Source: a virus
DNA: 20,643 nucleotides
Strand: one strand, 5' to 3'
Virus record (IMG/VR): IMGVR_UViG_3300023278_002047
Coordinates: 1 to 20,643 of that record
This document shows positions 1 through 17,080 of this stretch, piece after piece. The notes below the pieces were generated by a model, which saw only the letters and a program-made list of their open reading frames with translations, searched no databases and was not told the origin of the DNA. Position numbers and translations under genes: made by a program. The first letter of the stretch is position 1. Each line of letters starts with the position of its first letter.

Positions 1-681
1 GCCGCCTAAATATTGTCCATATGAACCCGGATCAAATATATAATCATGATCGTCTTGAAAATTAGGAACCGTTGGTAGCGGGCAGAACATGCGATTTAAA
101 TTCGCCACATGCAATAACGACATTTCGCTTACGTGATCAAACCCGAACTCCTGCATTAGCCACTGCTCCCCTTGTTCCAGTAATTGATTGAAGAAGAGAC
201 ACATATATCTTGTGTGTTGTGGTGTAGGAATATGAGCAAAAGCGAAAGTTACCTGATTTATAGACATGGGAGTCAGGCTCAACAATGTCTCCGTAGGAAC
301 ATCTTTGAGATCACCATAAATTAGGACATCATTCTCAAAGTGAAACGCATCGTAAATACGTTCTCTATTGAGATGTTCATCCAAGTAGTAAAGGCGCTCA
401 CAAGTCCTGTGCCAGAAAAGTTCTGGACTAGGATATGAAGTGTTGGGAGTACCATGTCTGCTGAAATTACAGACTTTATTGAACTCCGTTATGACTTCTC
501 CATTAGAAAGTTCATCTTGAGGAATCCAGTTCACTCCAAATTCTTCAAATAAAGGTTGGTCATCTTTACAAATAAAATCAAAACCAACATCTGGATTAGT
601 TTGTCTTGCTTTTTGGATTGAAAATCTAACGTAGTCTGGTAAAGCTCCTCCGTCAGATATAAAAGTGTTTACTATTTTCAT
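1..681 (-). CDS. Putative glycosyltransferase, 3' end cut by window edge
   Basis: The frame is open from an ATG at 681 to base 1, giving 227 residues without a stop, so the C-terminus is missing. It begins MKIVNTFISDGG. Residues 114-123 read HFENDVLIYG, a beta-strand followed by an acidic patch resembling the DxD-type metal and sugar-nucleotide site of GT-A enzymes. Near the edge it has FDPGSYGQYLGG, a motif I associate with phage and bacterial GT-like proteins. There is no signal peptide or membrane segment. It starts 2 bases after the preceding stop, and the upstream TGGA is only a weak ribosome site, so it probably depends on translational coupling. Glycosyltransferase is inferred from the motif and from its place in a sugar-gene run. 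Donor and acceptor are unknown. Confidence 0.6.
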   Translation of the reverse strand, partial: MKIVNTFISDGGALPDYVRFSIQKARQTNPDVGFDFICKDDQPLFEEFGVNWIPQDELSNGEVITEFNKVCNFSRHGTPNTSYPSPELFWHRTCERLYYLDEHLNRERIYDAFHFENDVLIYGDLKDVPTETLLSLTPMSINQVTFAFAHIPTPQHTRYMCLFFNQLLEQGEQWLMQEFGFDHVSEMSLLHVANLNRMFCPLPTVPNFQDDHDYIFDPGSYGQYLGG

Positions 682-683
682 AT

Positions 684-1403
684 TTAAGTCCAAGTGTGAA
701 TTGTGAATAGGTCTACATTAGTATCGCCCTTGTACATGTTTATCGCTGATCTAATTTCGTCATGTGACCACTGCTTGTATTGTCCATGGGTCTTTGTTTT
801 TGTGTGAGTGTGATTATACATTTGAGGATGTGTTTTTGCTACATAGTTTCCATAGGTTTCAAACTCAGAGAACAAATATTCTTCATTCACCAAAATTTCA
901 TTGAGGTCGTTTACAAACGTCTTCAGGTCTGGTAGCATTTCTCGGCACACATTCTTATCAAACAACATAAAGTCATTTATGTACGTATGATTAACCTGCC
1001 TACCAAATCCGAAGTATATTTCCATTAGACTAAAATATGGGATATGATGTTGATCTCTATCACTAATAAAGAAGTTTGGTTTTCCTCCAGCAAAGACATC
1101 AATAGGACGATTGAAAATTAGATCAGAATCTATACACATGTAAAGATCATTCATTGTTACGTCTTGAAAGGTCTTTATTAACTGCTGATAGATCCAATTA
1201 GGTCTACTAAACTTAACTTCGCTTATATCTAAGTCAATGACTTCCGAATCTGTCAGACATACAAAATTATCGGAAAGTGCATGGTCGGGCGTGACCAAAT
1301 ATATGTCATGAGGCATTGGGTTTAGCCACCTCATAGACTCAAGACAGTATTCAATTTTAGTATAGTCTTTTGGGTGTGATAATATAATAGCGTCGTATCT
1401 CAT
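684..1403 (-). CDS. GT-A-like glycosyltransferase (DUF6492-like)
   Basis: This 239-residue protein begins MRYDAIILSHPKDY. An N-terminal alternating strand/helix pattern leads to YMCIDSDLIFNRP (residues 88-100), whose D-S-D matches the DxD metal site of GT-A glycosyltransferases. Further on, FFISDRDQHH, NDFMLFDK and SEFETYGNY recall the DUF6492 family of GT-like proteins. I recognise that family by pattern only. The start is well supported: AAGGA lies 6 bases before the ATG. It begins immediately after the stop of the upstream gene, with no gap, as expected for a translationally coupled operon. No transmembrane segment is visible, so it is probably cytosolic. Its role in the glycan pathway is inferred from context. 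Confidence 0.65.
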   Translation of the reverse strand: MRYDAIILSHPKDYTKIEYCLESMRWLNPMPHDIYLVTPDHALSDNFVCLTDSEVIDLDISEVKFSRPNWIYQQLIKTFQDVTMNDLYMCIDSDLIFNRPIDVFAGGKPNFFISDRDQHHIPYFSLMEIYFGFGRQVNHTYINDFMLFDKNVCREMLPDLKTFVNDLNEILVNEEYLFSEFETYGNYVAKTHPQMYNHTHTKTKTHGQYKQWSHDEIRSAINMYKGDTNVDLFTIHTWT

Positions 1404-2276
1404 TTATATTCCTTGCAATATGTCTAATTCTTGATGTGGACAAACAATACCTTCAAAGTTTATATTTTTAAGAGAAAGCCTTTTACCGTCTTGAAATTCA
1501 TCCCTAAGATCCAAAGGTACATAGTTGTATTTGTCTCCATTCCTATTTTTTATTTGATCTTGAACTCTGTTGTTCGGTGAATTAACCACACAGCTGTGTT
1601 CAGGACAGGCCATTAATGGCGAAAGAGCAAAGAAATACATCTGCAACTTTGCCTCGAATTCGTTTGGTGTTTGGTTCCAAGCATACTTTGCTCTAGGTAT
1701 TACTCCATAGTTATCATAATGTTTATTCAGCACACATAACTCTTCAACAAACTTTTTCATATCACTAGCTTTGAATATATGTCCGTCTACGGAAAGTGGG
1801 TAAGACCAATAGCCCCCAACAGGCAATGTTGTTCTATTCCATACTATCATATTGCCAAGAGCACTTGCCTGATTAGGTAGTGAATCTTGCCTCAATATTC
1901 CGTCTCCGTAGTCTCGCATAGTCGTGTTTTTGCCTAATCTTAGCGAGATGCACGCTATTTCATACTCGTTAGAAAGCCTAATATCTTCCTCTGTTATGCT
2001 GAGCTTTTGGTACATTATATTGTCATCAGTAAAGAAGCAAACGTAATCTGATGCAGAAGTTACAGCATTAAGAATGTCTTCAAATATACTATGAGACTGT
2101 CGAATAAACGTGACATCCTGATGTTCGGACATCAACATATCATAAGATTCTACGTGCTCTTTGGATACAGTGTATATTACATTAATATCGGGCTCAAGAG
2201 TGTGTGCCTTTATACTGTTTAGGGTTAGGTCTAGCTGTAAAGCTCTGTCTTTGCTAAACACGATTGAGGTAAACAT
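1404..2276 (-). CDS. GT-A-type glycosyltransferase, substrate unknown
   Basis: I chose the ATG at 2276 (290 residues, MFTSIVFSKDRALQL). It has a perfect AAGGAG 7 bases upstream and places the first beta-strand (TSIVFSKDR) at the N-terminus, as GT-A enzymes do. A longer open frame reaches 2327 but adds an unstructured stretch and has no comparable ribosome site. Residues 10-35 resemble the GT2-like start in which several primers fan out (RALQLDLTLNSI). CFFTDDNIMY (80-89) supplies the acidic DDN metal-binding site. The protein overlaps the epimerase gene by 23 bases. A late conserved-looking segment (NEFEAKLQMYFFALSPLMA) may be the acceptor side. The fold call is by motif. Sugar and acceptor are not determinable. 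Confidence 0.7.
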   Translation of the reverse strand: MFTSIVFSKDRALQLDLTLNSIKAHTLEPDINVIYTVSKEHVESYDMLMSEHQDVTFIRQSHSIFEDILNAVTSASDYVCFFTDDNIMYQKLSITEEDIRLSNEYEIACISLRLGKNTTMRDYGDGILRQDSLPNQASALGNMIVWNRTTLPVGGYWSYPLSVDGHIFKASDMKKFVEELCVLNKHYDNYGVIPRAKYAWNQTPNEFEAKLQMYFFALSPLMACPEHSCVVNSPNNRVQDQIKNRNGDKYNYVPLDLRDEFQDGKRLSLKNINFEGIVCPHQELDILQGI

Positions 2277-3210
2277 CAAACTGCTCCTTGTTTTCCATAA
2301 ACCAATGTACCGTAGACTCAAGGCCATCCAACAGATCTACCTTTGGCTCGTAGTATAATCTCTCTTTAGCTCTACTTATGTCTAGCTGTCTTCGGGGTTG
2401 CCCATCTGGATAATCAGAATTAAAGTATATGGAGCCTTCGTAGCCCATGACTTGTGCAATCGTGTGCGCTAGGTATTTTATCTGTATCTCACCACCAGTT
2501 CCTATATTGATTGGTTCTGGAGAAACATCTTTTTCAAGAGCTAGTTTCACAGCATGCGCACAGTCGTCTACATATAAAAACTCTCTACTTGCTTCGCCAG
2601 TACCCCAAACTTCTACGGCTTCCAAATCAAACTTTATAGCCTTGTAAAATTTGAGTATGAGCGCTGGAATAACATGGCTTATGGCAGGATCAAAGTTATC
2701 GTGAGGACCATACATATTAACAGGAATGAGGTTAACGCCGTTAAAATCGTATTGCTTATGATAAGATTGCACCAGCTGCATAAGTGATTTCTTGGCAATG
2801 CCGTAAGGTGCGTTTGTTCCTTCGGGGTATCCATTCCAAATGTCCTCTTCTTTAAACGGTACAGGTGTAAATTTAGGATAAGCACAAACAGTTCCAACCA
2901 TTACAAATTTCTCAACCTTACTAAGCCTAGAAGCTTCAATAGTATTAGTGCCCATAACCAGATTATTGTACATGAACAGTCCGGGATTTTCTTTGTTTGC
3001 TCCTATACCTCCAACCGTAGCGGCAAGATGAATTACTGCATCAGGCTTTTCTTTCTCAAAAAAATCAAAGGTTTCTTCGTAGCAAGTTAAATCAACTGAT
3101 CTACCTATAGACAACAAATTATTATAGCCATGCGAAGTGAGCCTATCAACAACAGCTTTACCCAAAAAGCCTGTTCCTCCAGTTATCAAAACCTTCTTGT
3201 CTTTATACAT
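2254..3210 (-). CDS. fcl: GDP-L-fucose synthase (SDR epimerase/reductase)
   Basis: This 318-residue extended short-chain dehydrogenase should convert GDP-4-keto-6-deoxy-mannose to GDP-L-fucose with NADPH. Residues 10-17 (TGGTGFLG) are the GxxGxxG dinucleotide site. The catalytic Tyr136-x3-Lys140 (APYGIAK) falls at the same numbers as in E. coli GDP-fucose synthase. Cys109 and His179 also match its active-site residues. The catalytic Ser107 is replaced by Thr (VGTVCAYP), a variant I believe occurs in many bacterial homologues. MYGPHDNFD and REFLYVDDC are further family signatures. AGGAG lies 8 bases before the ATG, and the gene overlaps the upstream stop by 8 bases. GDP-mannose 4,6-dehydratase, which makes its substrate, is not in the window. 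It may lie nearby or come from the host. Confidence 0.9.
   Translation of the reverse strand: MYKDKKVLITGGTGFLGKAVVDRLTSHGYNNLLSIGRSVDLTCYEETFDFFEKEKPDAVIHLAATVGGIGANKENPGLFMYNNLVMGTNTIEASRLSKVEKFVMVGTVCAYPKFTPVPFKEEDIWNGYPEGTNAPYGIAKKSLMQLVQSYHKQYDFNGVNLIPVNMYGPHDNFDPAISHVIPALILKFYKAIKFDLEAVEVWGTGEASREFLYVDDCAHAVKLALEKDVSPEPINIGTGGEIQIKYLAHTIAQVMGYEGSIYFNSDYPDGQPRRQLDISRAKERLYYEPKVDLLDGLESTVHWFMENKEQFDVYLNRV
2284..2289 (-). promoter_or_regulatory. Shine-Dalgarno AAGGAG that fixes the start at 2276
   Basis: The minus strand reads AAGGAG, then a 7-base spacer, then ATG at 2276. It lies inside the 3' end of the GDP-fucose synthase gene. It decides between the 290-residue start at 2276 and an upstream extension to 2327. 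Confidence 0.8.
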
Positions 3211-4246
3211 TCATTTCTCTCCTAGTTTTGGACCAGCCATCGACTATACCTGTAGCTTCTTGCGTGTATCCAAAGTAATTCAGTATATCTGCCACCCTAT
3301 GGAAATTGGTATGATTGTCCAACAAAAACTGCTGCCCCTGTGAGGCCAATCCTTGACGCTCTTCTTCGTGACTTAGGTAGTAATCAATCTTTTCTCTAAA
3401 GTCTTGAGGGTTTTCTGCGAACACAACACCATTGCCGTTAAATATTTTTGCAATAGATGTTATATTGTCGGACACACAAAAGCCTCCTGCACACAAAATC
3501 TTAAAGCATCTTTCATTTATATCAAAACCATACTGGTGTGCGTGTGGCTCACTGAGGTTAGGACATACCTTTGCGGAGACAAAAAGGTCTTTAATCTTTG
3601 CATCTTGTATAAAACCACAGTACTGACTTATATGCCAAGGCTGGTTCCCAAAAACTTTGATATTATATTTATCTACTGGGTAACATAAAGGAGTTAAGAA
3701 TTGGTCTATCACAATCCCTTTGTGTGGCCAATAGCCACCAACGAATCCAATATCACAAGCCAGTGACTCATCATACTGACCGCCAAAATATTCCTGTACG
3801 TCGCCACACATTATCAGCGATTTAGCGTCTATTCCTATTTTAGAATAGTTTGAATGAGTTTGATCCACAGCATCTTGATCGTAATGGATATGGACAAAAT
3901 CTGGCTTACCAGTTTCATCTTTCATTCTTTTTAGGACTTCTAACTCTTGTTCAGTAGCATAGAGAACATTCAATCTTGGGTCTCGTTGAAAATCTCCCCA
4001 GTCTCCTGCTCGCAGTCCAACTTTAAGGTGCGGTCTTTCATATATACATTTGATTAGATCCGATGTCAAATTATAAGACTGACCGAGGAACACATCAGGT
4101 TCAAGCAAATCAAATGCGTCAAAAGCCGACATGCTTTTACAGTCCCAAAATTGGGCTTTTATGCCAACGGAATTGAATGCTCGCAACCAAGACAGTCTTT
4201 GAAAATAATGGGCGTGCATCCCATCACTAGATATTAAAATTTTCAT
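3203..4246 (-). CDS. CgeB-like glycosyltransferase (GT-B, Glyco_trans_1_2 type)
   Basis: The protein has 347 residues and begins MKILISSDGMHAHYFQRLSW. The N-terminal half looks like a degenerate Rossmann domain that lays out a path for the acceptor. The C-terminal half carries INERCFKILCAGGFCVSDN (243-261), followed by GNGVVFAENPQDFREKIDYYLSHEEER. This is the characteristic pattern of the CgeB/Glyco_trans_1_2 domain: a helix with R and E contacting the donor, then a small-residue strand, then a loop. It should transfer a sugar from a nucleotide donor in the cytosol. The start overlaps the upstream nucleotidyltransferase by 20 bases and the ribosome site is weak (AAAGA), suggesting coupling. 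The family call is fairly firm. The linkage is unknown. Confidence 0.75.
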   Translation of the reverse strand: MKILISSDGMHAHYFQRLSWLRAFNSVGIKAQFWDCKSMSAFDAFDLLEPDVFLGQSYNLTSDLIKCIYERPHLKVGLRAGDWGDFQRDPRLNVLYATEQELEVLKRMKDETGKPDFVHIHYDQDAVDQTHSNYSKIGIDAKSLIMCGDVQEYFGGQYDESLACDIGFVGGYWPHKGIVIDQFLTPLCYPVDKYNIKVFGNQPWHISQYCGFIQDAKIKDLFVSAKVCPNLSEPHAHQYGFDINERCFKILCAGGFCVSDNITSIAKIFNGNGVVFAENPQDFREKIDYYLSHEEERQGLASQGQQFLLDNHTNFHRVADILNYFGYTQEATGIVDGWSKTRREMNV

Positions 4247-4934
4247 TCTTTAAATCTTTCATGCAATCTATTTCTAATATTGAAACGTTCTGCGGTTCTA
4301 TAACCTTGATGTTGCCGCCTTTATTTATTATAAGGTTGAGGGCCTCAAAAGTCAACATCTTTTTTGTTTCTTCTGAGTGTTTAATGAATATTTGTCTCAA
4401 TAGCTTTAGCTCTTTGCCGCACAGATAAACTATCTGACACCATTTTAAATCCAATCCATGAGAGAAAATAGTGGCTTTATTTTTAACCTTAGTAAGTCCG
4501 ACCTCTCTATCGTTCATAGTTGACAAAGATGCCAACACGAAAGATCTGGAGTAATCTAAATTTTCAAGCAGGCTTTGGGAAAAGTAAAGATCTCCATGAA
4601 AGAAGAGTATGCTGTCAGAATCTGAATTGTTTACAACCAACCTCATTGTTTCTGCTGATCCGGTAGTCTCATAAAGTTGATTCTCTACATACCTGATGCC
4701 ACCGCTAAGCTTCTTAATAACTTTATTTGCTTCTACGCCAAGACCTATGATTATTTCTGGATTCAAGAAAGCGTTTCTTACAATGGAAACTTGGTGCTCA
4801 AGCAGAATCTTGCTACCTATCTTCAGTAGACTTCTAGGCTCATTCGATTTTATTCTATTCCCAACTCCCGCAGATAGCACACCAACAGTAGTCGTAATTG
4901 AATCTTTCTTAATTTTTTGAATAAATCTGTTCAT
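4227..4934 (-). CDS. Sugar nucleotidyltransferase-like protein
   Basis: The protein has 235 residues. Residues 18-27 (GVLSAGVGNR) match the G-x-G-x-R loop that binds the nucleoside triphosphate in sugar-phosphate nucleotidyltransferases and LicC-like cytidylyltransferases. FFHGDLYF (111-118) supplies the metal-binding Asp. The usual Pro-Lys after the loop is Pro-Arg here (NEPRSLLKIG, Arg34), which may lower or alter catalysis. Residues 90-97 (TTGSAETM) resemble the base-recognition segment. It probably activates a sugar or alditol phosphate for the neighbouring transferases, but neither base nor sugar can be assigned. It overlaps the GT2 gene by 26 bases and the next gene by 20. The ribosome site is weak. 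It is somewhat short for a full pyrophosphorylase. Confidence 0.7.
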   Translation of the reverse strand: MNRFIQKIKKDSITTTVGVLSAGVGNRIKSNEPRSLLKIGSKILLEHQVSIVRNAFLNPEIIIGLGVEANKVIKKLSGGIRYVENQLYETTGSAETMRLVVNNSDSDSILFFHGDLYFSQSLLENLDYSRSFVLASLSTMNDREVGLTKVKNKATIFSHGLDLKWCQIVYLCGKELKLLRQIFIKHSEETKKMLTFEALNLIINKGGNIKVIEPQNVSILEIDCMKDLKNENFNI

Positions 4935-5745
4935 TGCGGCTTCTTATTCTATTGGCATTATCTTGAAATATTTCTGTAGTCATTTTCATAGACTGATTAA
5001 GTCCAGTTTCTCTGACATATGAAAGCGGTTCTGCGACATGGGACATCATACATACATTTGAGAGTCTAAGCCATAGATCGTAGTCTTCTGTACATCCTAT
5101 AAATTCTTGACTTCCGGGGCCATGCAAATTGCTATCATAAAACTCTTGATTGTCTAATATAATCTTTGATAGATAGTTCTTTTTTATAATCCCAGCGCTA
5201 TGTACGATACATTGTTTCTCTAATTCAAATTTAGAATATGGATATTTGTATTCGTACTTTTCATAGTCATTGTAAGTATAAGACTTATGTATAATATAAT
5301 CTGAATATGTTACACCTATTTCGTCATGCTCGACTAACTTTTCTACTTGCTTTGAAACCTTGCTAGGGTGATAAAGGTCATCTGCGTCAAGAATGGCAAA
5401 ACAATCAGCCCATTCCCAAGCTTCCCATATCGCTACATTTCTAGCGGTACTGGCTCCTGAATTTTCAATACGGTAACACCATAGATTCAAGTCGCTGCAT
5501 TGAAATAGTTCCATCGTGCCACTGTAATATGGCTCTTCTATTTCATGTGCATCTATTGTGGAAGATATGTCTTCTGATGCATAGCCTATTAACTTTTCCC
5601 AAGAACCATCAGATGAGCCGTCATCAATAACATAGATACGCATTCGACCTTCATAGTCTTGCTCCAAAGCGCTTGAGATAGCATCTAAAACATAGTCGCC
5701 ATAATTATAGTTAGTAATTATAACCGCAACATTAGGAAGGCTCAT
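4909..5745 (-). CDS. Family 2 glycosyltransferase
   Basis: This is a clear GT2 enzyme of 278 residues. Residues 7-16 (AVIITNYNYG) form the first strand. VIDDGSSDGS (39-48) binds the nucleotide. The DxD metal site is in AILDADDLYHP (Asp120-Ala-Asp122). Glu220-Asp221 in CTEDYDLWLRL supplies the likely catalytic base. All key GT2 motifs are intact, so activity is likely. There is no membrane segment, so it is a soluble transferase. The start is convincing, with GGGAGG 9 bases before the ATG. It overlaps the upstream gene by 14 bases and the nucleotidyltransferase by 26. The donor may be the product of that neighbouring nucleotidyltransferase, but this is inference from adjacency only. Confidence 0.9.
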   Translation of the reverse strand: MSLPNVAVIITNYNYGDYVLDAISSALEQDYEGRMRIYVIDDGSSDGSWEKLIGYASEDISSTIDAHEIEEPYYSGTMELFQCSDLNLWCYRIENSGASTARNVAIWEAWEWADCFAILDADDLYHPSKVSKQVEKLVEHDEIGVTYSDYIIHKSYTYNDYEKYEYKYPYSKFELEKQCIVHSAGIIKKNYLSKIILDNQEFYDSNLHGPGSQEFIGCTEDYDLWLRLSNVCMMSHVAEPLSYVRETGLNQSMKMTTEIFQDNANRIRSRNEQIYSKN

Positions 5746-6538
5746 TGATAAATTCCTCCCATGTTATTAAGGTGTCTGGATCTGACGTATTCATTTTCTT
5801 TATCTTGTCTAAAAAAGATAGTGTTATCTCTTTGCCTGTTTCTTTGTGCTTTAACTTTCTATTCCCATCCAAGAACTTATATATGGCAGTCTGGAATATC
5901 ATCCCATTCAATTCATTATAAGGCTCTACAAAGACGAGTCTTTTCATATCTACATTGATTCTATCATTAATTTTTTCTAGCAGGTCTAATCTAATATTTT
6001 CGCCACTTGTAGTTACATAAGCCCATCCATTTTTAGCGTGCCTAAATGCTTCATCTAAGAGGAAGTCATCTTTGTCTTCTACTAAAGTTTGTACAATATG
6101 AAACTCTGTTTGCTCAAAGTCAAAATTGTCCCTTAGCAATTCATGTAGCTGTTCATTATATTCAACCCTTGAGTTTATAACGGCCAAGTATCGAACAAAG
6201 CCAAATGTTTGATTTTTGATGTCTTCCAACGTTACTTTTAGTCGGTCAATCATACCTTCTTCGTTATCCAAAAACACAAAGAGTCCCACTCTAGGAGATA
6301 CTTCGCTCATCACAGTTTTAACTAGGTCTTGTTTTTCTTGCTTTTTTAGAACAGCTTTCCATTCATCTGGTCTATATGTGTTACAAAATCTATTAAATAT
6401 ATAATGATGCCTATCGCCATCTAAAAGGTAATCACCTTTAGGGTTTAGCTTTTCAATCCTATTGAGCTTACATCCAGTTTGTGTGTCTTCGGTATACTTA
6501 GCAAACACACAACCTTTACAGTTAGTTTGAATTTGCAT
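5732..6538 (-). CDS. Degenerate GT2-like protein with four-Cys N-terminus
   Basis: The protein has 268 residues. The N-terminus carries a cysteine set: Cys7-x2-Cys10-x12-Cys23 and Cys52 (NRFCNTYRPDEW). This suggests a small zinc- or iron-sulfur-binding module. From about residue 83 a GT2-like Rossmann pattern appears (RVGLFVFLDNEEG, then TLEDIKNQTFGFVRYLAVINSR). Where active GT2 enzymes have the DxD site, this protein reads AYVTTSGENIRLD, with no DxD. It is therefore probably a binding or scaffold protein, or an inactive transferase. The start has an ideal AAGGAG 8 bases upstream. It overlaps both neighbours (17 and 14 bases). I have no named family for it. The GT2 relationship is an inference from the strand pattern. 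Confidence 0.55.
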   Translation of the reverse strand: MQIQTNCKGCVFAKYTEDTQTGCKLNRIEKLNPKGDYLLDGDRHHYIFNRFCNTYRPDEWKAVLKKQEKQDLVKTVMSEVSPRVGLFVFLDNEEGMIDRLKVTLEDIKNQTFGFVRYLAVINSRVEYNEQLHELLRDNFDFEQTEFHIVQTLVEDKDDFLLDEAFRHAKNGWAYVTTSGENIRLDLLEKINDRINVDMKRLVFVEPYNELNGMIFQTAIYKFLDGNRKLKHKETGKEITLSFLDKIKKMNTSDPDTLITWEEFINEPS

Positions 6539-6965
6539 TGGCCACTCTCCTTGAAATTATGATGCTTTGCATTGTCTCGGCATCTAGAGTCATCTCTTCA
6601 ATTTTTAAATTACTATTCTTTATAATTTCTGTAATCGCATCAGTGTTGAGTACACATCCTATTGATGGGGAGTCCTCGAATAGCATTGAGTTCATATCTG
6701 TTAAAGACATGCCAGTCTTATTATACTTGTATGAAAGTAAGTCAATATCCTTTTGGTATATTACCAACTTTGAGTTCAGTCTCATTTTTGATACAATCTT
6801 TTGTAAGATGTGTCCCAAGCTCTCAAAGTTAAAAGCAGATAGGAAGCTATCAACAATTATATCAGTTGCCTCATTGTTGTCTACAATAGAGTCAATGGTG
6901 GAAATATCACTTATCCAAGTGTGACTCTTGCTCTCTGGGTCTATATGTGAAAGTATGATTTTCAT
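6522..6965 (-). CDS. Truncated methyltransferase-like protein, SAM motif absent
   Basis: The protein has 147 residues. DIIVDSFLSAFNFESLGHILQKIVSKMRLNSKLVIYQ (about residues 35-71) resembles the second half of a class I methyltransferase. There the acidic strand, the 'His-Phe' loop, a helix and the LKPGG-type turn before strand 5 follow each other. The first half of such a fold, with the glycine-rich SAM-binding loop, is missing. The protein may therefore be an inactive partner or a specialised small fold. The ATG shares one base with the upstream stop (TAATG), and an AAGGA lies 13 bases upstream. It lies directly before the degenerate GT2-like gene, and the two may act as a pair. The function is not known, and the homology is a weak pattern match. 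Confidence 0.45.
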   Translation of the reverse strand: MKIILSHIDPESKSHTWISDISTIDSIVDNNEATDIIVDSFLSAFNFESLGHILQKIVSKMRLNSKLVIYQKDIDLLSYKYNKTGMSLTDMNSMLFEDSPSIGCVLNTDAITEIIKNSNLKIEEMTLDAETMQSIIISRRVANANSN

Positions 6966-7984
6966 TATTTTTTATAATTCCTTATAACCTTAATAAACAG
7001 ATCGTTCCAGCTTTCAGTGAACCTGTCTAAACTGTAATTATCTTTAATCGTGTTTCTTGCATTTTCGCCTAGCCTTCTAGCTTCCTGTGGATTATCAAGT
7101 AAAAATTGACAATGCTCCCTAAGCTCATCTGCTGTATTTGCCAGTAAACCATTTTCATTGTGTGTAATAATTTCTGGAATCATACAGTTGTTGGTGCTTA
7201 CGATTGCACAGCCACAGGCCATTGCCTCCATCAGCACGGTCGGTACGGGAGAGTGTATAGAAGTGTTCAGAAATACCGAAGAGCTCTTGTATGCGTCTCT
7301 TAGGTCTTCTATACTCTCTGCAGGCTCAGAAAATCCGGGACTACTACCAAGAACTTTGATTGGCAGTGTACCATCATCAGTTCTTATTATTTCGTTCCAA
7401 AGATTCCAACCACAGCACCAATCTCTATTAGGCCACTCATTGACAACAGAAAGTAAGACATTTTCTCTTCCTAGCTCTTCACCTGTTTGCCAGAAGTCGT
7501 AATCCATGCCATGCTCAATGAAACCGGTGCTATCACTTTCCTCGTTACCCCAAGCTCGCATATTGTTATCGGATATAAAACTATTGTAATCAACAGGTGT
7601 CGAGTTGAACGCAGAAACTTGTTGTGGCACATCAAATCTAATATCAGGCAGAACATGCGTATGTCTAAGGACTGGTATGTTGTACATAGCCTGTAGATTC
7701 TTAGAGAATTGCAGTCTTTCGCAACTCGTATGACATAATATTAAATCAAACTGCACATGCCAAGGCAAGATTTCTATTTGCTGATAGTTGTCTGGAATCT
7801 CACCATAATCTTCATTCCATGTCTTTCCACGAGCTATAGAATAAAAATTGTGCCCAGTTCTGCATAGGTTCTGTTCATATCTTTCATGCGTACAAAACGT
7901 TAATATATTCAGCTTATCTGAATTTTTCATTGTTGCACGACGAACCATAGATTTTATAGAGGTTTGATTTGGCTGACTAGCCAT
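6965..7984 (-). CDS. GT4-like glycosyltransferase (GT-B fold)
   Basis: The protein has 339 residues. The first 25 are polar and probably flexible (MASQPNQTSIKS...). The first strand is LNILTFCTHERYEQNL. The C-terminal donor domain has the GT4 core SPVPTVLMEAMACGCAIVSTN (about 245-265), followed by PEIITHNENGLLA. In the E-x7-E signature the second Glu (Glu253) is kept, but the first is Ser245. Many retaining GT4 enzymes of this subtype tolerate that. The start is clear, with AAAGGAG 7 bases upstream, and overlaps the preceding gene by 8 bases. It is a cytosolic retaining transferase by family, with donor unknown. It is one of three GT4-type genes encoded in a row. Confidence 0.85.
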   Translation of the reverse strand: MASQPNQTSIKSMVRRATMKNSDKLNILTFCTHERYEQNLCRTGHNFYSIARGKTWNEDYGEIPDNYQQIEILPWHVQFDLILCHTSCERLQFSKNLQAMYNIPVLRHTHVLPDIRFDVPQQVSAFNSTPVDYNSFISDNNMRAWGNEESDSTGFIEHGMDYDFWQTGEELGRENVLLSVVNEWPNRDWCCGWNLWNEIIRTDDGTLPIKVLGSSPGFSEPAESIEDLRDAYKSSSVFLNTSIHSPVPTVLMEAMACGCAIVSTNNCMIPEIITHNENGLLANTADELREHCQFLLDNPQEARRLGENARNTIKDNYSLDRFTESWNDLFIKVIRNYKK

Positions 7985-9083
7985 GAAGCAACTCCTTTAA
8001 TTGTCTACCAACTTTTCTGTTACTATAATTCTGTGCTTTAGATTGAGCATTTGCACAAATTAAGTCATATTTTTTTCTATCATTTTTGTATGTTTCATAG
8101 GCAACCCTCATTGCAGAGGCTAGATGTTCTATACTTGGCTCCATCCACTTAGTGTGTGAAGTATACATGTAGTCCAAAGAGTCTGTAGCGCTATAGCAAG
8201 GCTTGGCCTCTGACTCAACTTTCCATCCATGACAGAAATCATCCATCCCAGTATTTCCAGTATAGATCACTGGTATACCAATTGCCATAGATTCAAGGGC
8301 TGGGATACACCAAGCCTCTCCAAAGCTAGGCATAACAAAACATTGACACTTAGACATCAATGATAGCAGGTGTCTATCTTCTAAATGTCCAGCAATTGCA
8401 ATCTCGTTTTTATATTTAGTTCTTATTTTTAGTCCCGACTTCACAGATTCAGAAAGATTCTTAAATGCCTGTAGAGTTGAATCGGTTGATAGGCCACTCC
8501 TGTTTATCTTAAGCATTAAGTTAACAGGTTCCGAAGGATGAAACTCTGTATGAAAAGCTCTCAATAGACCTTCGATGTTTTTTCTGTTTATTAGCTCTCC
8601 CACAAAACAAAAGTTGAAGCAGCCAGCAAACTCTGTGGCGTCAGCACAATCTTCTATATTAGTATACTTAGATATGTCGAGCGAGTGCGGAGCAATCTTT
8701 ACTGGGACTCTTACTCCGCTTTTATGGCAAGCGTCAATCATCTGCTCGTTTGGAACCCAGACTTCATCCATCATGTTAATATGTTTTTGCCACATAGTCT
8801 CAGTAAACGTTACCGTCTCTGTCACAAAGAACCCAATATTTTTAAGTTTGGAATTGTAACTATATAGTGGAGGCAGTGTGTGGTATATACAGGCGTCACA
8901 ATCTTTCTCGCTCTTTTGTTCAAGCTCAGTTATAATGGGATGTATATCTTTATGAGAATTATTGAACGTGATTGCTCTTGGTACTACATCTACACCAGCA
9001 GAATGTAAAGCCAAGATGTTGTTTAGTGATGCATAGCCCCAACCAGTTCTATCTTTATAATTACCGATGTAAAGTGTTTTCAT
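7977..9083 (-). CDS. GT4 glycosyltransferase (GT-B fold)
   Basis: This is a 368-residue GT-B enzyme. The N-terminal domain opens MKTLYIGNYKDRTGWGYA, with the Gly-rich turn GWGYASLN that contacts the donor phosphate. The linker and second domain follow from about residue 155 (FNFCFVGELINRKNIEGLLRAF). The catalytic signature is SFGEAWCIPALES, with Glu256 and Glu264 forming an intact E-x7-E, followed by MAIGIPVIYTGNTGMDD. All expected GT4 elements are present, so it should be active. AAAGG lies 7 bases before the ATG. The start overlaps the previous gene by 23 bases, and the end overlaps the next GT4 by 8. The sugar cannot be predicted. Confidence 0.9.
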   Translation of the reverse strand: MKTLYIGNYKDRTGWGYASLNNILALHSAGVDVVPRAITFNNSHKDIHPIITELEQKSEKDCDACIYHTLPPLYSYNSKLKNIGFFVTETVTFTETMWQKHINMMDEVWVPNEQMIDACHKSGVRVPVKIAPHSLDISKYTNIEDCADATEFAGCFNFCFVGELINRKNIEGLLRAFHTEFHPSEPVNLMLKINRSGLSTDSTLQAFKNLSESVKSGLKIRTKYKNEIAIAGHLEDRHLLSLMSKCQCFVMPSFGEAWCIPALESMAIGIPVIYTGNTGMDDFCHGWKVESEAKPCYSATDSLDYMYTSHTKWMEPSIEHLASAMRVAYETYKNDRKKYDLICANAQSKAQNYSNRKVGRQLKELLHG

Positions 9084-10716
9084 TTTGTAACCTTTGTATT
9101 CTCATGTTTTCCCATTGGTTGTGAGTTTGTCTCATTTTAACCATATACTCATACGCTTGTTCTATATCGAATGGACTCCAGTTTCTAATACCGTTCTCCA
9201 TATGCGACTCATTAAAATACCAATCTTGACTCGTGCTAGTCGCTGTGCATTTGTAAAGCAAATCCCTCAATGTTCTTTTCCACTGGTAATTTCCAATCCA
9301 TTCTGGTTTTCTTAAAACAGACTCAAATAGAAAATTAGCTTGGTCTTTAACTGTTATGTCTTGAGGTATGGAAGGAGCAGGTTCAAATAACCTTGGCGGT
9401 GAATACCAAGTTTTAGAAGGGTCTTTCACCGGCATTGAAGCAAAGTAATTAGCCCAAACATCTGCGGTATTATCCCAGTTATATCTCTGTAAGGTTTTTT
9501 GCCTCATGCCAAAACCCATTTGTTTTAGCTGCTCTTTGCGAAGGCTATAAAGCTCTATAAACTTCAGCAAGGTAAATTCATTATTCGGAATAGCTCGCTT
9601 ACATCCCGTTTCACATTCGGTCTGTAGCGTTAATAAAGGAACTTTTATTGCTCCAATGTTATCACCAACTGAATCCATGGCGGAGTATGAAACTGTCATA
9701 ACTGGAACCCCAGACTGGCTGGCTTCAAGCTGCGGCATTCCAAAACCTTCACTATTTGCATATTGAATATAAAGATCAAAAAGATTGTATATTTTAGCTA
9801 GTTCTTCTTCTTCAATTTTATTATTAACGCCGACGAGCTCACCTCTAAAAGAGTTGCATGCGCGACAATGATTTATTGTATCTTTGAAGAATGACGGCTC
9901 TATATGGCCACACTGCTTACACTTATAAGTAAACAAAACCCTATTCGTAAGATCGTATTCCTGTAGCAGGTCAGGTATTTCCCAGCCAACATCTGGAAAA
10001 TATGTGTGACAATACAAAAAAGCATTACTAGCTTTTGTGGAGTCTAAAAATTCTCTAAATGTCTTAAACAGGTCAGGATAGAGTTTACGCCTTTGATTTC
10101 GCATAACCGTACCAATAATAAAGGAATTAGGGTCAAGGCCAGCTAACTCCTTATGTCTTTCTTTGTCACTAACAGGATGATAGTTATGACTAGCACAAGG
10201 CGAAGCAATATCTACAAAGTTGATATCTTTACACTGATTCAACAATACATCCCTACCAAATTCCGAATAGGCAAATACCGCATCAGCAGAAGCAAAGGTA
10301 TCAATCCATTGTTTGTTCTGTGGGAATGCGTCCACTGTTGGCATGATCGTCCAACTATAAAAGTCTCTATAAGTAGACCGCTGTTGGAATTCAAACATCC
10401 ACCAGTCACGAATATCCATGACAAAATCAGGCTTAAAGTCTAATAGCACATGATTAAATGTATACTCGCCAAACTCATGGGTGGGAGAAGCCTTATATGT
10501 GGCCCATTCTTCCGAGTTTTTATCTGGCTGGTTGCCATATATTTTCCAGCCTTTCGCGTTCTGCTTCACGCTCTCGTCATTAGCATAACAGGCAAGTTCT
10601 GCAACTTCAAACCTTGGATCGTCATGAAGTCTAGATAAAAGTTCTTTTGTATAAACAGAATATCCTGTCGGCAACCAATGGGCTTCAGTGCATAAAAGTA
10701 TCTTCCTAGCTCTCAT
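9061..10716 (-). CDS. Large GT4-like glycosyltransferase with inserted zinc ribbon
   Basis: I prefer the ATG at 10716 (551 residues, MRARKILLCTEAHWLPTG), which starts at the first strand. An ATG at 10764 would add 16 residues, and both have weak ribosome sites. The N-terminal domain has the donor turn HWLPTGYSVYTKELL. In the second domain, a Cys-x2-Cys...Cys-x2-Cys set (Cys266, 269, 284, 287) forms a probable zinc ribbon, just after RVLFTYK. It precedes the catalytic core ANSEGFGMPQLEASQSGVPVM with an intact E-x7-E. The C-terminal 110 residues or so are helical, with no recognised domain. It overlaps the sigma-like gene by 11 bases. Glycosyltransferase is firm. The ribbon's job (acceptor or protein binding) is speculation. 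Confidence 0.85.
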   Translation of the reverse strand: MRARKILLCTEAHWLPTGYSVYTKELLSRLHDDPRFEVAELACYANDESVKQNAKGWKIYGNQPDKNSEEWATYKASPTHEFGEYTFNHVLLDFKPDFVMDIRDWWMFEFQQRSTYRDFYSWTIMPTVDAFPQNKQWIDTFASADAVFAYSEFGRDVLLNQCKDINFVDIASPCASHNYHPVSDKERHKELAGLDPNSFIIGTVMRNQRRKLYPDLFKTFREFLDSTKASNAFLYCHTYFPDVGWEIPDLLQEYDLTNRVLFTYKCKQCGHIEPSFFKDTINHCRACNSFRGELVGVNNKIEEEELAKIYNLFDLYIQYANSEGFGMPQLEASQSGVPVMTVSYSAMDSVGDNIGAIKVPLLTLQTECETGCKRAIPNNEFTLLKFIELYSLRKEQLKQMGFGMRQKTLQRYNWDNTADVWANYFASMPVKDPSKTWYSPPRLFEPAPSIPQDITVKDQANFLFESVLRKPEWIGNYQWKRTLRDLLYKCTATSTSQDWYFNESHMENGIRNWSPFDIEQAYEYMVKMRQTHNQWENMRIQRLQNENTLHR

Positions 10717-11188
10717 ATCTTTGTATTTTTCCCACTCCAGAATAGAATAGATTATAATATTCATTTTTGCTTAATGTTAATGTTTCACAGATTTCTTTTC
10801 TGTTAAAGCCCTGCGATTTCATGTCTAAGATAAATGATTCTATAGGCAGCAAACGTTTAGAGCAAGATGCTAATATTTGCTTAAATTCATCTACATAGCT
10901 TTTGTCTTCGTGGCTTATTGAGACAGTGGAGTTTGTGACATTATTATTCTGCCATCTTAATTCTTTTGTTAGGAATCTGTTGAGATGGTTCTTTACTGAA
11001 GAAAAGACATAGGGTCTGAGAGGCCCGATGTTCTCATCAAAACTGCTGATGGCGTTGAAGTATCCAACAAATGCAACCTGCAGTAGGTCTTCAAACTCAA
11101 AGGACTTTGCGTGACCGCCAAATTGTACAACTAAAGAAATTATAACATCAAAATTATCGTCTATAGAAATACAATCACTCTCCTTCAT
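10706..11188 (-). CDS. Sigma-70-like transcription factor, phage type
   Basis: With the ATG at 11188 the protein has 160 residues. FEFEDLLQVAFVGYFNAISSFDE (30-52) matches sigma region 2, where an acidic-D-L-x-Q helix and 'FD' hold core RNA polymerase. It is followed by RPYVFSSVKNHLNRFLTKELR, like region 2.3-2.4. The end (LLPIESFILDMKSQGFNRKEICETLTLS, about 113-140) looks like a region-4 helix-turn-helix. No region 1 or 3 is present. The size is close to T4 gp55, the late sigma, but sequence similarity to gp55 is not obvious to me. It overlaps the SSB gene by 14 bases and precedes the sugar cluster. It could direct late transcription. A longer frame reaches 11266 inside SSB and is less likely. 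Confidence 0.6.
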   Translation of the reverse strand: MKESDCISIDDNFDVIISLVVQFGGHAKSFEFEDLLQVAFVGYFNAISSFDENIGPLRPYVFSSVKNHLNRFLTKELRWQNNNVTNSTVSISHEDKSYVDEFKQILASCSKRLLPIESFILDMKSQGFNRKEICETLTLSKNEYYNLFYSGVGKIQRYES

Positions 11189-11513
11189 CGTCTTGTCTAT
11201 CTTTAAACACTCTAAAGTTTTGAACCCTGAATGTAACCTTTTGTCTCGCTTGACCGTTTGAGTCATTCCATTTTTCCTGTCTGGCTATAGTAGAAACAGC
11301 TATCATGTCACCCTTACTGCACAACTTGTGAATGGTTGTTGCTCCGCTATCCCAAGCAGAAAAATCAAAGAAGTCCACACGCTTAATCTTGTTTCCGTTC
11401 TTATCTTTTCGGTGCTTTTCAATAGCCAGCGAAAATGTTGCCAACTGAGTTGAACCAACATCTTTGATAACAGGGTCTGCTGTTAATCTACCTACAAAAT
11501 TACAATTATTCAT
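11175..11513 (-). CDS. ssb: Single-stranded DNA-binding protein, bacterial type
   Basis: The 112-residue protein fits the OB fold of bacterial SSB. It opens with MNNCNFVGRLTADPVIK, where 'VGRLTxDP' is diagnostic. LATFSLAIEK, RVDFFDFSAWD and the strand KGDMIAVSTIA follow, and it ends with VTFRVQNFRVF. It should coat unwound DNA for the helicase and polymerase encoded upstream. The tail is short and acidic (DDEGE) and lacks the terminal Ile-Pro-Phe that host SSB uses to recruit partner proteins. The start has GGAG 7 bases upstream. It is the only replication gene preceded by a real gap (36 bases), so it may be initiated independently. Confidence 0.92.
   Translation of the reverse strand: MNNCNFVGRLTADPVIKDVGSTQLATFSLAIEKHRKDKNGNKIKRVDFFDFSAWDSGATTIHKLCSKGDMIAVSTIARQEKWNDSNGQARQKVTFRVQNFRVFKDRQDDEGE
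11180..11185 (-). promoter_or_regulatory. AAGGAG misplaced just downstream of the sigma-like ATG
   Basis: A perfect AAGGAG on the minus strand lies immediately after the ATG at 11188 and across the end of the SSB gene, not before the ATG. The only in-frame codon at a normal distance (9 bases) is ATT. Either the ATG at 11188 is used through coupling with SSB, or a rare ATT start is used. The sequence alone does not decide. Confidence 0.4.
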
Positions 11514-11545
11514 AAAAGTACTCCAAATACACTATATATTAACTA

Positions 11546-11558
11546 CAAGCTACGCTTG
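11546..11558 (-). other. Small inverted repeat spanning the polymerase C-half stop
   Basis: CAAGC-GTA-GCTTG forms a perfect 5-bp stem with a 3-base loop over the stop codon, just before the 36-base gap in front of SSB. No U-tract follows, so it is not a standard terminator. It could affect translation or RNA stability, or be chance. Confidence 0.3.
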
Positions 11559-13112
11559 AGACACTTTGTTTATTATTAAACTAGTATCTTTTTTCTTAGA
11601 AACCTGACCCATCACAATAACAGTATTGCCTTCATATAAAAGTTGCTTGTTTTCTTCATAAGCATCTGGAAATACTATTGCGGAATCTAAGCCTGCCGTC
11701 GAATCCTCAACAGATAGGAATGCCATAACCTGTCCGGGGTTCTTGCCATTTTTAGTCTTATATTCACGTAAAGCATTAATATGCACAGCAAGATTTACGC
11801 TTCCCGTTTTGCCTTGCACTATCTCTTTACATGTACAGTTTACCAACGAGCTTTCTACCGCATCAGTTTTTGAGTAACTTAGCGCTGTTCCTAGAAACTT
11901 TATTTCTAAATCTGCGATTTGTTCGGGGTGATCATTTAATTCAAAAGGAGGAGATTCTACTACATTTCTTAAGTCAAAAACCTTTACAAGTCTACGAGAA
12001 GTAATCTTAAGATTATTTATCATATTATCTAAAGACTCTACAAGTGTATGGCTTGTATCATAGTTTTCTTGTAGCCACGTTCTCTCCCTCGCAGATAGAT
12101 CTTTGTAGCTCTTGTACTCATAAAGCATTTGGCTTCGATGCATTCGATTTTTAGTGCCATTGAAAGCCCCAACATTTATTAGAGACTCCATTGAGGTCTT
12201 GTTTATCCTAGCGCCCAAATTGAACAATACATCACACCAAGAAAAGTGAGTAAAAGGCTTTTCCAATTTTTCTTCTAGTTCTGGTATGGCATCTAATAAC
12301 TTTACAGTTTCAGAACTGCCAACACCTTTAACATTATTCACTCCGAAATATATCTTCTCATCAGATATAGTGAAGTTATTGAAAAACTTTCCAAGTCTTG
12401 GTGGCATGACTTCTATATCGTAAAGTTTGGCATCTGATACCAATTCCCTTACCTCTGTGTGGGGATCTGGTTTTCTATCTGCATGACCAAGATAAGCTTC
12501 AAAGAACTCCATCTTGCGGTGTACCTTACAATATGCGCTTCGGTAAGCATTAACAGCATAAGAAACAGCGTGAGATTTATTAAAGGCATACCTGTTAGAC
12601 TTCTCAATCCAACCAAAGATCTCCTCTGCCGCTTCTTTTTCTAATCCGCCGATAGAGATAGCCCCTTGAATAAAAGAACCTTTGATCTGATTCATAAGAC
12701 CGGCTTTCTTTTTGCCAATAGCTTTACGAAGACTGTCTGCTTCTTTAAGGTCAAACCCAGCCAACTGTTGAGCGATTTTCATGGACTGCTCCTGATAAAC
12801 AAGAACACCATAAGTTTCTTTCAAAATTGGTTTAAGGTTTTGATGTAAATACTTAACCTCATCAATGCCAGCTTTACGGTCAACATAATGCTGTGTCATT
12901 GATTTGCCTTCAGTGAAAGCCTTCAGACATCCGGGCCTAATCAAAGAGATTAAAGCAGCTAGTTCTTCGATACTTCTAGGCTGAACTCTTTTAGCCCAAG
13001 ACCTGCCAAGTTGCGACTCTAACTGAAAGACACCTTTTGTTTGTCCTTCACAAATTAAATCCCAAACATTAGAGTCATTATAGTCATCAATATTAAACGT
13101 AGAATTCTCCAT
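11550..13112 (-). CDS. dnaE (C-terminal part): DNA polymerase III alpha, C-half (fingers to OB domain)
   Basis: With the ATG at 13112 this has 520 residues. AAGG lies 9 bases upstream, inside the exonuclease gene. It starts where DnaE fingers begin: the leading FNIDDYNDSNVWDLI equals the DnaE segment before VFQLES (28-33). Then come SLIRPG (56-61), TYGVLVYQEQSM (100-111), ADSLRKAIGKKK (125-136) and YAFNKSHAVSYA (175-186). VNNVKGVG (258-265) is the helix-hairpin-helix region. The C-terminus from about 380 is an OB domain (FLSVEDSTAGLDSAIVFPDAYEE). None of the three catalytic aspartates is here. They lie in the separate N-half gene. I saw no obvious clamp-binding motif. It must associate with the N-half to work. 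Confidence 0.9.
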   Translation of the reverse strand: MENSTFNIDDYNDSNVWDLICEGQTKGVFQLESQLGRSWAKRVQPRSIEELAALISLIRPGCLKAFTEGKSMTQHYVDRKAGIDEVKYLHQNLKPILKETYGVLVYQEQSMKIAQQLAGFDLKEADSLRKAIGKKKAGLMNQIKGSFIQGAISIGGLEKEAAEEIFGWIEKSNRYAFNKSHAVSYAVNAYRSAYCKVHRKMEFFEAYLGHADRKPDPHTEVRELVSDAKLYDIEVMPPRLGKFFNNFTISDEKIYFGVNNVKGVGSSETVKLLDAIPELEEKLEKPFTHFSWCDVLFNLGARINKTSMESLINVGAFNGTKNRMHRSQMLYEYKSYKDLSARERTWLQENYDTSHTLVESLDNMINNLKITSRRLVKVFDLRNVVESPPFELNDHPEQIADLEIKFLGTALSYSKTDAVESSLVNCTCKEIVQGKTGSVNLAVHINALREYKTKNGKNPGQVMAFLSVEDSTAGLDSAIVFPDAYEENKQLLYEGNTVIVMGQVSKKKDTSLIINKVSQA

Positions 13113-13782
13113 TCGCAAACGCCTTTTCAAATTTAGTCTTCTGTGAAATGTTCCGCTGGAACTTCAAAAATTTAATCAATATATTAGCCGTGTCTTTAAC
13201 GTCCTGTAACGCATCGTGAGCGTTCTGCTTGCTCTCTTCTGGAAAACCCATATAGTCTCGCAGAAAGTCCATGCTAAGACTCTTGAAGTCTTTATTGTTC
13301 TCAGTCCAAGAGAAAACCATATCCATCAAGTCCAACTTAAAGATAGGATTGAATACAGTCTGGCGACCTCTTGAGTCGGTAGTCCCGTGCATGTCACACA
13401 TACGCTGAACGATTGGTAAGTCAAAGCCAATGATGTTGTAACCTGCAGCAATAGGAGCAGTATAAGAGCTTTTCTTGAAATTAAACTGCATACAAAAGTC
13501 TTCAAACTTTTTCCAAACAGTTTTTGGTAACGGAGCCTTTGCCAAAGCCTCTCTTGTTTTACCTGTAATTTTTAAAGCTTCTTCTTCTAGAGGATCAAAA
13601 CCAGCCTCAATCGCTTTCTTGTCGTCAAGAATAGGTCTAATCTCGCTATTGAAAATACCGTTGGGCTGAATTGTTAGCTTGCGTCCATGCAAAGCAATAG
13701 CCGCAACTTGTGTCGGTTGTGTCTTGTGTGGATTTCTAGACCCTGTTTCAAAGTCAAAAACAATTATATCTCTGTAATTCAT
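13093..13782 (-). CDS. DnaQ-like DEDDh 3'-5' exonuclease (proofreading)
   Basis: This 229-residue RNase H-fold exonuclease has all catalytic residues. Asp10 and Glu12 are in VFDFETGS (Exo I), Asp121 in AAGYNIIGFDLPI (Exo II), and His189 with Asp194 in NAHDALQDV (Exo III, the DEDDh type). It should remove mismatched 3' nucleotides for the polymerase. The gene sits between the two halves of DNA polymerase III alpha: its ATG overlaps the upstream 75-residue gene by 4 bases (ATGA), and its end overlaps the C-half start by 20 bases. AGAGG lies 9 bases before the ATG. Gene position strongly suggests it is the epsilon-like partner. RNase T-like or DNA-degrading roles are less likely. Confidence 0.88.
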   Translation of the reverse strand: MNYRDIIVFDFETGSRNPHKTQPTQVAAIALHGRKLTIQPNGIFNSEIRPILDDKKAIEAGFDPLEEEALKITGKTREALAKAPLPKTVWKKFEDFCMQFNFKKSSYTAPIAAGYNIIGFDLPIVQRMCDMHGTTDSRGRQTVFNPIFKLDLMDMVFSWTENNKDFKSLSMDFLRDYMGFPEESKQNAHDALQDVKDTANILIKFLKFQRNISQKTKFEKAFANGEFYV

Positions 13783-14006
13783 CTAACATTACCTCTTAAT
13801 TCAATAAATTTATCAACTGCTTCATTAATGTCATAAAACAGCTTACTATACAAATTCTTTTTATTGTCTGAATGTACTTGGTAAACGCCATTGAGTCTAC
13901 CTCTGAATTGAGGAAGAAAATACCTTAGATCACAAAGGCTAACATTTTTATATTCAATCGCGCAGCCAGAAAACAGAACTGACTTATAATCTTCTTTAGT
14001 GCTCAT
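13779..14006 (-). CDS. 75-residue protein of unknown function between pol N-half and exonuclease
   Basis: I do not recognise this small soluble protein. It begins MSTKEDYKSVLFSG, continues through YFLPQFRGRLNGVYQ, and ends INEAVDKFIELRGNVR, a likely amphipathic helix. It has no membrane segment, no zinc motif, and no intein or homing-endonuclease (LAGLIDADG or GIY-YIG) signature. GGAG lies 7 bases before the ATG. The gene overlaps the polymerase N-half by 11 bases and the exonuclease by 4. Its place between the pieces of the polymerase suggests a small accessory subunit or bridge of that complex, but this is inference from position alone. Confidence 0.75.
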   Translation of the reverse strand: MSTKEDYKSVLFSGCAIEYKNVSLCDLRYFLPQFRGRLNGVYQVHSDNKKNLYSKLFYDINEAVDKFIELRGNVR

Positions 14007-15576: not shown

Positions 15577-16066
15577 GACAATCCTTAAATTTATTCAATT
15601 CTGAAATAGCAACATTATGACAATCTGCTCTAACAACAAAGCCATTAGAAGGGTCTTTCTGGCCTTTCGTAAGTTTGCGAGCTTTCTTAAAATAATCATC
15701 GTGAGTTAACCAACCTAAAACCCACGCTCTTCCCCATCTTTTGTTTTTGTTCTCAATCCTGACAAAAACATATCGGTCGCACTTTTGTTTTGTATTAAAG
15801 TTAGCAACCGAGCAATCATAGTATGGCTTAGGTGGAGAAGTGCATCTTTTTGTTTTTACGTCGTATTTAATTCCATCTTCTGAAACCAGATCATAATCAT
15901 AGGTGTTATTGATTGTACCACCTATAACCACATTTGCAACCTCTTCACCTAAAAACCCAGCAATATTTCCATCGCCCTTCATGATGGAGTTCTTTATAAC
16001 TCCCATCTCTCTAGACTTTGCCCATGCACTCTTTTTCATTTCTTCTGTAATTTTTACTTCAATCAT
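15554..16066 (-). CDS. Small PD-(D/E)XK nuclease-like protein
   Basis: The protein has 170 residues. GFLGEEVANVVIGGT (37-51) has an acidic residue (Glu41) at the place of the first nuclease Glu. NNTYDYDLV (53-61) supplies Asp59, and GIKYDVKTKR (65-74) gives Asp69-x-Lys71, the (D/E)xK catalytic core. The CDRYVFVRIE strand (96-105) then fits the fold. It resembles small phage PD-(D/E)XK endonuclease-like proteins. The substrate is unknown: it could be a repair, recombination or host-DNA nuclease. The start overlaps the upstream stop by a single base (TAATG), with only GAGG ten bases upstream, so it probably depends on re-initiation. It lies between another nuclease and the polymerase, which argues for a replication or repair role. 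Confidence 0.65.
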   Translation of the reverse strand: MIEVKITEEMKKSAWAKSREMGVIKNSIMKGDGNIAGFLGEEVANVVIGGTINNTYDYDLVSEDGIKYDVKTKRCTSPPKPYYDCSVANFNTKQKCDRYVFVRIENKNKRWGRAWVLGWLTHDDYFKKARKLTKGQKDPSNGFVVRADCHNVAISELNKFKDCHELDSTK

Positions 16067-17079: not shown

Positions 17080-17080
17080 G

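Follow-up and report, generated by a model that had tools for sequence, protein, structure and literature searches.

The entire IMG/VR fragment IMGVR_UViG_3300023278_002047 (20,643 bases, hereafter the window) carries a run of twelve glycan genes, w12 to w1, which belongs to a 20- to 30-gene line for fucose-containing, decorated sugar chains in an uncultured lineage of tailed viruses, the chains being most likely carried by the particle. We interpret this locus as a phage-encoded glycan assembly line operating in the cytosol, whose acceptor would be a virion protein of the capsid or of a tail appendage, and we put the probability of this reading at about 0.5.

All window genes described here lie on the minus strand. 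The open reading frames (ORFs) w12 to w1 occupy positions 1-10716, every neighbouring pair overlapping or abutting. A preliminary description of the window had recognized among these twelve genes several glycosyltransferase (GT) folds, a nucleotidyltransferase and a GDP-L-fucose synthase, a composition borne out by the ORFs, by Pfam and by comparison of w4 with an Escherichia coli enzyme. The firmest assignment among the glycan genes is indeed w4 (2254..3210), a predicted GDP-L-fucose synthase (GMER/Fcl) that belongs to the NAD epimerase Pfam family and aligns over nearly its full length with E. coli GDP-fucose synthetase 1bsv (residues 5-311, E 2.8e-67), the T-x-C, YxxxK and SHVIPAL residues being all present. 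The run continues past the left edge of the window, as had been supposed: the relative G003, whose gene order follows that of the window and whose genes are mostly 88-100% identical to it, adds 10-14 glycan-type genes. These start with two GT47/GT-B-like enzymes, a GT10 fucosyltransferase with an N-terminal domain, a methyltransferase and a Sulfotransfer_2 enzyme, for which no PDB relative was found by sequence. Next come a small protein that reads as cupin-like, a two-part methyltransferase and an FkbM methyltransferase fused to a DegT-like part, followed by the GDP-mannose 4,6-dehydratase (GMD) that had been proposed as a gene to look for nearby (gI, PF16363, E 1.1e-109) and by a GT25-like protein just below the Pfam cut-off. 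The last four genes of the run are gK, which by our reading probably encodes one half of a GT-B enzyme, a NUMOD3-type nuclease gene, then gM and finally a gene for a zinc-ribbon protein.

Relatives were obtained by scans that yielded 22 viral loci with w12 as query and 79 with the C-terminal part of the DNA polymerase DnaE (DnaE-C); nine longer records, of 64-154 kb, were examined over their entire length. The records are probably fragments for the most part, and their genes were called mechanically as ORFs. Their gene content confirms that the window lineage, seen in metagenomes only, is one of tailed phages. The 145-kb relative G001 encodes a terminase large subunit, a portal and a major head protein (PHROGs), and giant tail-side genes converge on the glycan run, in agreement with the phage origin first proposed. 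It had been considered that an extended contig might lack virion genes or that the region might be a chimeric assembly; virion genes are present, and the same gene order in many independent contigs rules out a chimera. The terminase is approximately 24-27% identical to those of the best known phages among the matches listed, while neither a nucleotide search of the whole window against 50,697 phage records nor a protein search for w12 in phage isolates returned a match.

The window genes are under strong purifying selection: the ratio of nonsynonymous to synonymous substitution rates (dN/dS) is 0.02-0.1 where dS is unsaturated, with the exception of w3, which reaches 0.16 in one pair. Downstream of DnaE-C, w12 was retained in 65/65 relatives with enough sequence, w11 in 62/62, w10 in 55/55, w8 and w7 in 52/52 and w6 in 50/50, some loci sharing a contig. 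Because low dN/dS values are combined with this constant position, chance is excluded as an origin of the arrangement. A comparison of about 19 relatives further separates a fixed core from a variable island. The order sigma-w12-w11-w10-w8-w7-w6-w5, like the order gK-gL-gM-gN, is constant in nearly all full genomes, and the core persists down to about 44-50% DnaE identity between phages. An island-free version even exists: contig L176 carries DnaE-C, sigma, w12, w11, w10, w9, w8, a 125-amino-acid (aa) protein, w6 and w5, then gK, gL, gM, gN and a convergent gene, its w9-like and w10-like proteins having been identified by position and reading.

Gene content between w4 (or w5) and gK differs from genome to genome. 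In the 17 records where both bounds were resolved by script, this island spans 3.8-14.1 kb and 5-18 genes; clustering of its 203 genes at 35% identity gives 87 families, of which 49 are singletons and four occur in at least half of the genomes. Outside this count, G020 holds about 20 genes between w5 and gK. G001 and G002 are alike in core and flanks, their gC proteins are 34% identical and the gD-gI block is absent from G002. Further islands carry DegT aminotransferase, HAD and NTP transferase, WavE-like, PIG-L deacetylase, formyltransferase and galactosyltransferase-like genes. Replacement also reaches single alleles within the window. The w3 product (1404..2276), a probable GT-A enzyme whose TDD motif is invariant in the alignment of relatives, is 69% identical to that of G001 versus 55% to that of the nearest relative G003, whereas its neighbours are 96-98% identical to G003; between window and G003, dN amounts to 0.34 for w3 and to 0.007-0.02 for w4, w2 and w1.

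These gene families suggest the following pathway. GMD and w4 would convert host GDP-mannose into GDP-L-fucose and w6 would activate another sugar-1-phosphate. The glycosyltransferases would build and extend the chain, with w12, w11, w10, w9, w8, w6, w5 and gK, usually joined by w7 and w4, producing a common core oligosaccharide, to which the products of the swappable island would add terminal sugars and modify them. In the nearest relative, the chain may be finished by the GT10 enzyme, the sulfotransferase and the methyltransferases, and in other relatives terminal sugars could be modified by DegT aminotransferase, PIG-L deacetylase and formyltransferase. The sugars would be attached in the cytosol to an abundant virion protein, as is thought to occur in chloroviruses.

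What receives the chain is the point on which readings diverge. We favour a virion acceptor since a core retained over such deep divergence is more readily explained if the acceptor moves along with the phage than if it is a molecule of the host. A second indication comes from w12 (9061..10716), the first gene of the run, a predicted GT4 enzyme (PF00534, E 5.2e-6) that contains a zinc-ribbon-like Cys4 motif as an insertion and ends in a helical domain: its structure model (predicted local distance difference test, pLDDT, 84) has as best PDB fold match the chlorovirus NY2A glycosyltransferase 3oy2 (E 9.4e-19), although GT-B fold matches of this kind are generic for GT4. The GT4 fold also has relatives among enzymes of small molecules (MshA, BshA, sucrose-phosphate synthase), and the product could in principle be a small secreted or intracellular glycoconjugate, such as a storage sugar, an osmolyte or a glycosylated secondary metabolite, instead of a polymer-bound glycan; we regard this as very improbable, some ten glycosyltransferases with variable terminal decorations being better suited to a long displayed chain. 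A third indication in favour of a virion acceptor is provided by w11 (7977..9083), a putative GT4 enzyme of the phrog_2170 family (PF00534, E 1e-12; phrog_2170, E 5.3e-31). Its distant relatives occur in Streptomyces phages, where related GT4 pairs lie near structural genes, and Streptomyces hosts have no lipopolysaccharide (LPS).

Several observations weigh against a virion acceptor. Neither a link between any virion protein and the locus nor an oligosaccharyltransferase was found; the run lies behind replication genes, not within a structural operon, and several records are fragments, which makes absences weak. Moreover, the gene content resembles the 15-gene cluster of cyanophage P-SSM2, GMD, fucose synthase and a methyltransferase-type gene being 40-49% identical between the two, and the literature takes phage clusters of this type as host-surface modification (PMC2984593; PMC7824862). 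The locus could accordingly remodel the LPS, capsule or teichoic-type polymer of the host through host carriers and flippases and so block superinfection or grazing, and its swappable islands with conserved edges do have the look of O-antigen loci. We consider this alternative less likely, though a serious one. The host would have to provide an initiating phosphoglycosyltransferase, a flippase, a polymerase and a ligase, and the core is unchanged across very diverged phages that presumably infect different hosts. No initiating membrane transferase, flippase, polymerase or ligase was found in the locus, and a hydrophobic-segment scan that detected its psbA control revealed no multi-spanning membrane protein in any of the loci. 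The preliminary description was right in seeing neither flippase nor polymerase: of the 203 island proteins, 200 have no hydrophobic segment and each of the remaining three has a single weak one. Its further step, from missing membrane proteins to a soluble cytosolic target, is not established. The P-SSM2 cluster (AY939844), which encodes GMD, epimerases, GT2, GT1, GT11, GT6 and GT25, is equally devoid of membrane proteins and is read as host-LPS modification; this absence alone cannot separate a virion from a host-surface acceptor.

DNA had also been named as a possible target. Replication genes and a deoxynucleoside monophosphate (dNMP) kinase lie next to the start of the operon, and DNA glycosylation is known in phages, so that the glycosyltransferases might decorate modified phage bases against restriction. 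This is improbable: among 16 records, mostly incomplete, none encoded thymidylate synthase-type hydroxymethylase (Thymidylat_synt, PF00303) or C5-cytosine methylase (PF00145), the controls of both being detected, and none encoded Tet_JBP (PF12851), the control of which was detected nowhere. Furthermore, no DNA modification pathway known to us is as extensive as this set, in which some 20 sugar genes are accompanied by a sulfotransferase and numerous methyltransferases.

Two core proteins had been called degenerate companions. The first, w8 (5732..6538), combines an N-terminal four-cysteine motif (C7, C10, C23 and C52, invariant in the alignment) with what alignment and structure model indicate to be a pseudo-GT-A domain. 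Its model (pLDDT 74, poor over the first 50 residues) matches best the GT-A folds of TarS, TarP and PcManGT (E 7e-7), and acidic residues are missing at the DxD position when relatives are aligned; w8 has no relative in PDB by sequence and did not match w3 in a profile comparison. The second, w9 (6522..6965), appears to be a truncated methyltransferase-like protein devoid of the S-adenosylmethionine motif. It may correspond to the latter half of a class I methyltransferase, as suggested by a weak, in-register profile match to that half of a Methyltransf_11 protein (E 0.019, probability 2%). The term degenerate is apt as regards catalysis and misleading if it means decay: dN/dS is 0.03 for each protein (G001 versus G002 for w8), and together with retention in the most distant relatives these values rule out pseudogenes. 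Combining these features with a virion acceptor leads to a more elaborate picture that we offer tentatively, as somewhat short of an even chance: a widespread uncultured lineage would build a polymorphic coat on its virions, fucosylated, sulfated and methylated by a soluble pathway that has a conserved core and undergoes serotype-like island swapping, w8 and w9 serving the assembly complex as structural subunits.

The remaining genes of the run are mostly predicted transferases. On the variable side of the locus, w1 (1..681) is cut off at its C-terminus by the window edge (the G003 version has 290 aa); it is 98% identical to the G003 copy with a dN/dS of 0.04, and reading of the sequence reveals a FENDVL acidic motif. 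Neither w1 nor w3 has a usable Pfam match and both are probably GT-A-like, as judged from acidic DxD-type motifs. Membership in DUF6492 (PF20102, E 8.9e-9) and a CIDSDLIF motif make w2 (684..1403; dN/dS 0.04) another probable GT-A glycosyltransferase. In the core, w5 (3203..4246) is a putative GT-B glycosyltransferase (Glyco_trans_1_2, PF13524, E 8.2e-23), w6 (4227..4934) a MobA-like nucleotidyltransferase (PF12804, E 4.3e-7) whose AGxGxR motif is kept in ten relatives and w10 (6965..7984) a predicted GT4 enzyme (PF00534, E 2.5e-19); w7 (4909..5745) is a candidate GT2 enzyme with a DADD motif (PF00535, E 4.7e-18).

Directly upstream, a predicted sigma-70 region 2 factor (10706..11266; PF04542, E 7.6e-7) overlaps w12 by 11 bases. 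Pfam and PHROGs assign the genes at 11175..20468 to replication, and the complete minus-strand order reads DnaB, primase, dNMP kinase, PD-(D/E)XK nuclease, a 170-aa protein, the DnaE N part, a small ORF, an exonuclease, the DnaE C part, SSB, the sigma factor and w12 to w1. A promoter scan of the window gave a count equal to that of shuffled sequences. The alpha subunit of DNA polymerase III is split over two separate genes (window 11550-15576), with the small ORF and the exonuclease gene in between. The break falls between E. coli residues ~563 and 592, just past the last catalytic aspartate, and the parts are more than 200 bases apart in all 99 relatives having both (99/99). No intein is visible at either end of the split. 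At L179:4377-6575, the C part is itself recovered as two matches with about 480 bases between them, which points to an insertion or an additional split.

At the other end of the locus, a 13-pair stem with a T run stands immediately after gN (L111:19955-19984), terminator-like sites numbering 11 against 3.0 in shuffles. Beyond the stem, the convergent giant genes (729-2850 aa) occupy the other strand. One of these tail-side proteins (L112:2349-4538, minus strand; 729 aa) is very rich in cysteine and proline, is made of repeated units and has no Pfam match. Genes for 2-oxoglutarate-Fe(II) oxygenases lie on the tail-side strand near the island at G018:C1:44559-44825 and G022:C1:65566-65829. G001 and G007 encode a phage transfer-messenger RNA (tmRNA) with the tag VEENFALAA (L108:5447-5789, minus strand; L114:3280-3625, plus strand; RF00023, 101-106 bits).

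Assigning a host from metagenome-assembled genomes (MAGs) proved unsuccessful: the matches (SAR202, Verrucomicrobiales, Lokiarchaeota, Phycisphaerales, Hydrogenophaga) fall on phage-like contigs that had been placed in bins, and the tmRNA tags did not settle the host. Lineage contigs L174 and L178 come from one SAR202 MAG (OSU_TB57), in which a terminase of 64% identity and two distinct tmRNAs also occur, and offer a possible lead. Contigs L176 and L177 of the same lineage, from a Lokiarchaeota MAG bin, possibly reflect bin contamination or an Asgard-associated virus. Microcystis phage MaeS was rejected as a near relative, its matches being distant and confined to terminase, helicase, class II ribonucleotide reductase and the structural region.

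If the chain is carried by the virion, serotypes would be set by swappable cassettes, affecting adsorption, recognition by defence systems and particle fate in the sea, and the lineage would provide a bacterial-virus model for virus-autonomous glycoprotein assembly, a counterpart, on this scale, to chlorovirus capsid glycosylation. If it is carried by the host, these phages would possess a recombining surface-polysaccharide kit. In either case, comparing fixed core and variable island turns a gene list into a testable pathway with priorities for assays.

To our knowledge, virion glycosylation in mycobacteriophages involves one or a few glycosyltransferases and no 20- to 30-gene pathway with sugar synthesis and sulfation; Freeman et al. 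2023, as cited in PMC12619734, reportedly described glycans on the capsid and tail subunits of these phages. Moraphages have four core glycosyltransferases (PMC12619734). Chloroviruses encode GMD and GMER, and the glycans on their capsids contain fucose and are built on a conserved core (PMC5408694). Like PBCV-1, the present lineage combines virus-encoded glycosyltransferases, GMD and GMER, a conserved core and variable decorations, a likeness of gene content only; the fold of w12 is similar to that of a chlorovirus glycosyltransferase, with sequence homology shown only at the level of GT4. The chloroviruses are eukaryotic viruses of algae in which glycan and acceptor are proven, whereas the present lineage is known from its genes alone. 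Bacterial O-antigen and capsule loci likewise have conserved flanks, between which genes for making, transferring and decorating sugars are exchanged as an island; unlike them, this locus is carried by phages and has no Wzx, Wzy, ATP-binding cassette exporter or initiating transferase. Cyanophages come closest. P-SSM2 has 24 genes in two clusters (PMC2984593), glycosyltransferase clusters occur across jumbo cyanophages (PMC7824862) and S-SCSM1 carries another (PMC9602691). The 'LPS' clusters of P-SSM2 and S-SSM-type Kyanoviridae are soluble, comprise GMD, GDP-fucose synthase, epimerases, several glycosyltransferases and methyltransferase-type genes and are polymorphic between related phages. 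The present locus shares with them a run of several GT families, together with GMD and GDP-fucose synthase, on a phage genome bearing virion genes. It differs by lacking a T4-like Kyanoviridae backbone, its DnaE polymerase being in two pieces and its sequence having no nucleotide match, and by an island flanked by a fixed core (w12-w5, gK) that includes the pseudo-enzymes w8 and w9. Similar clusters are thus already known in cyanophages, and the present lineage is a variant of them with a fixed core and a swapped island.

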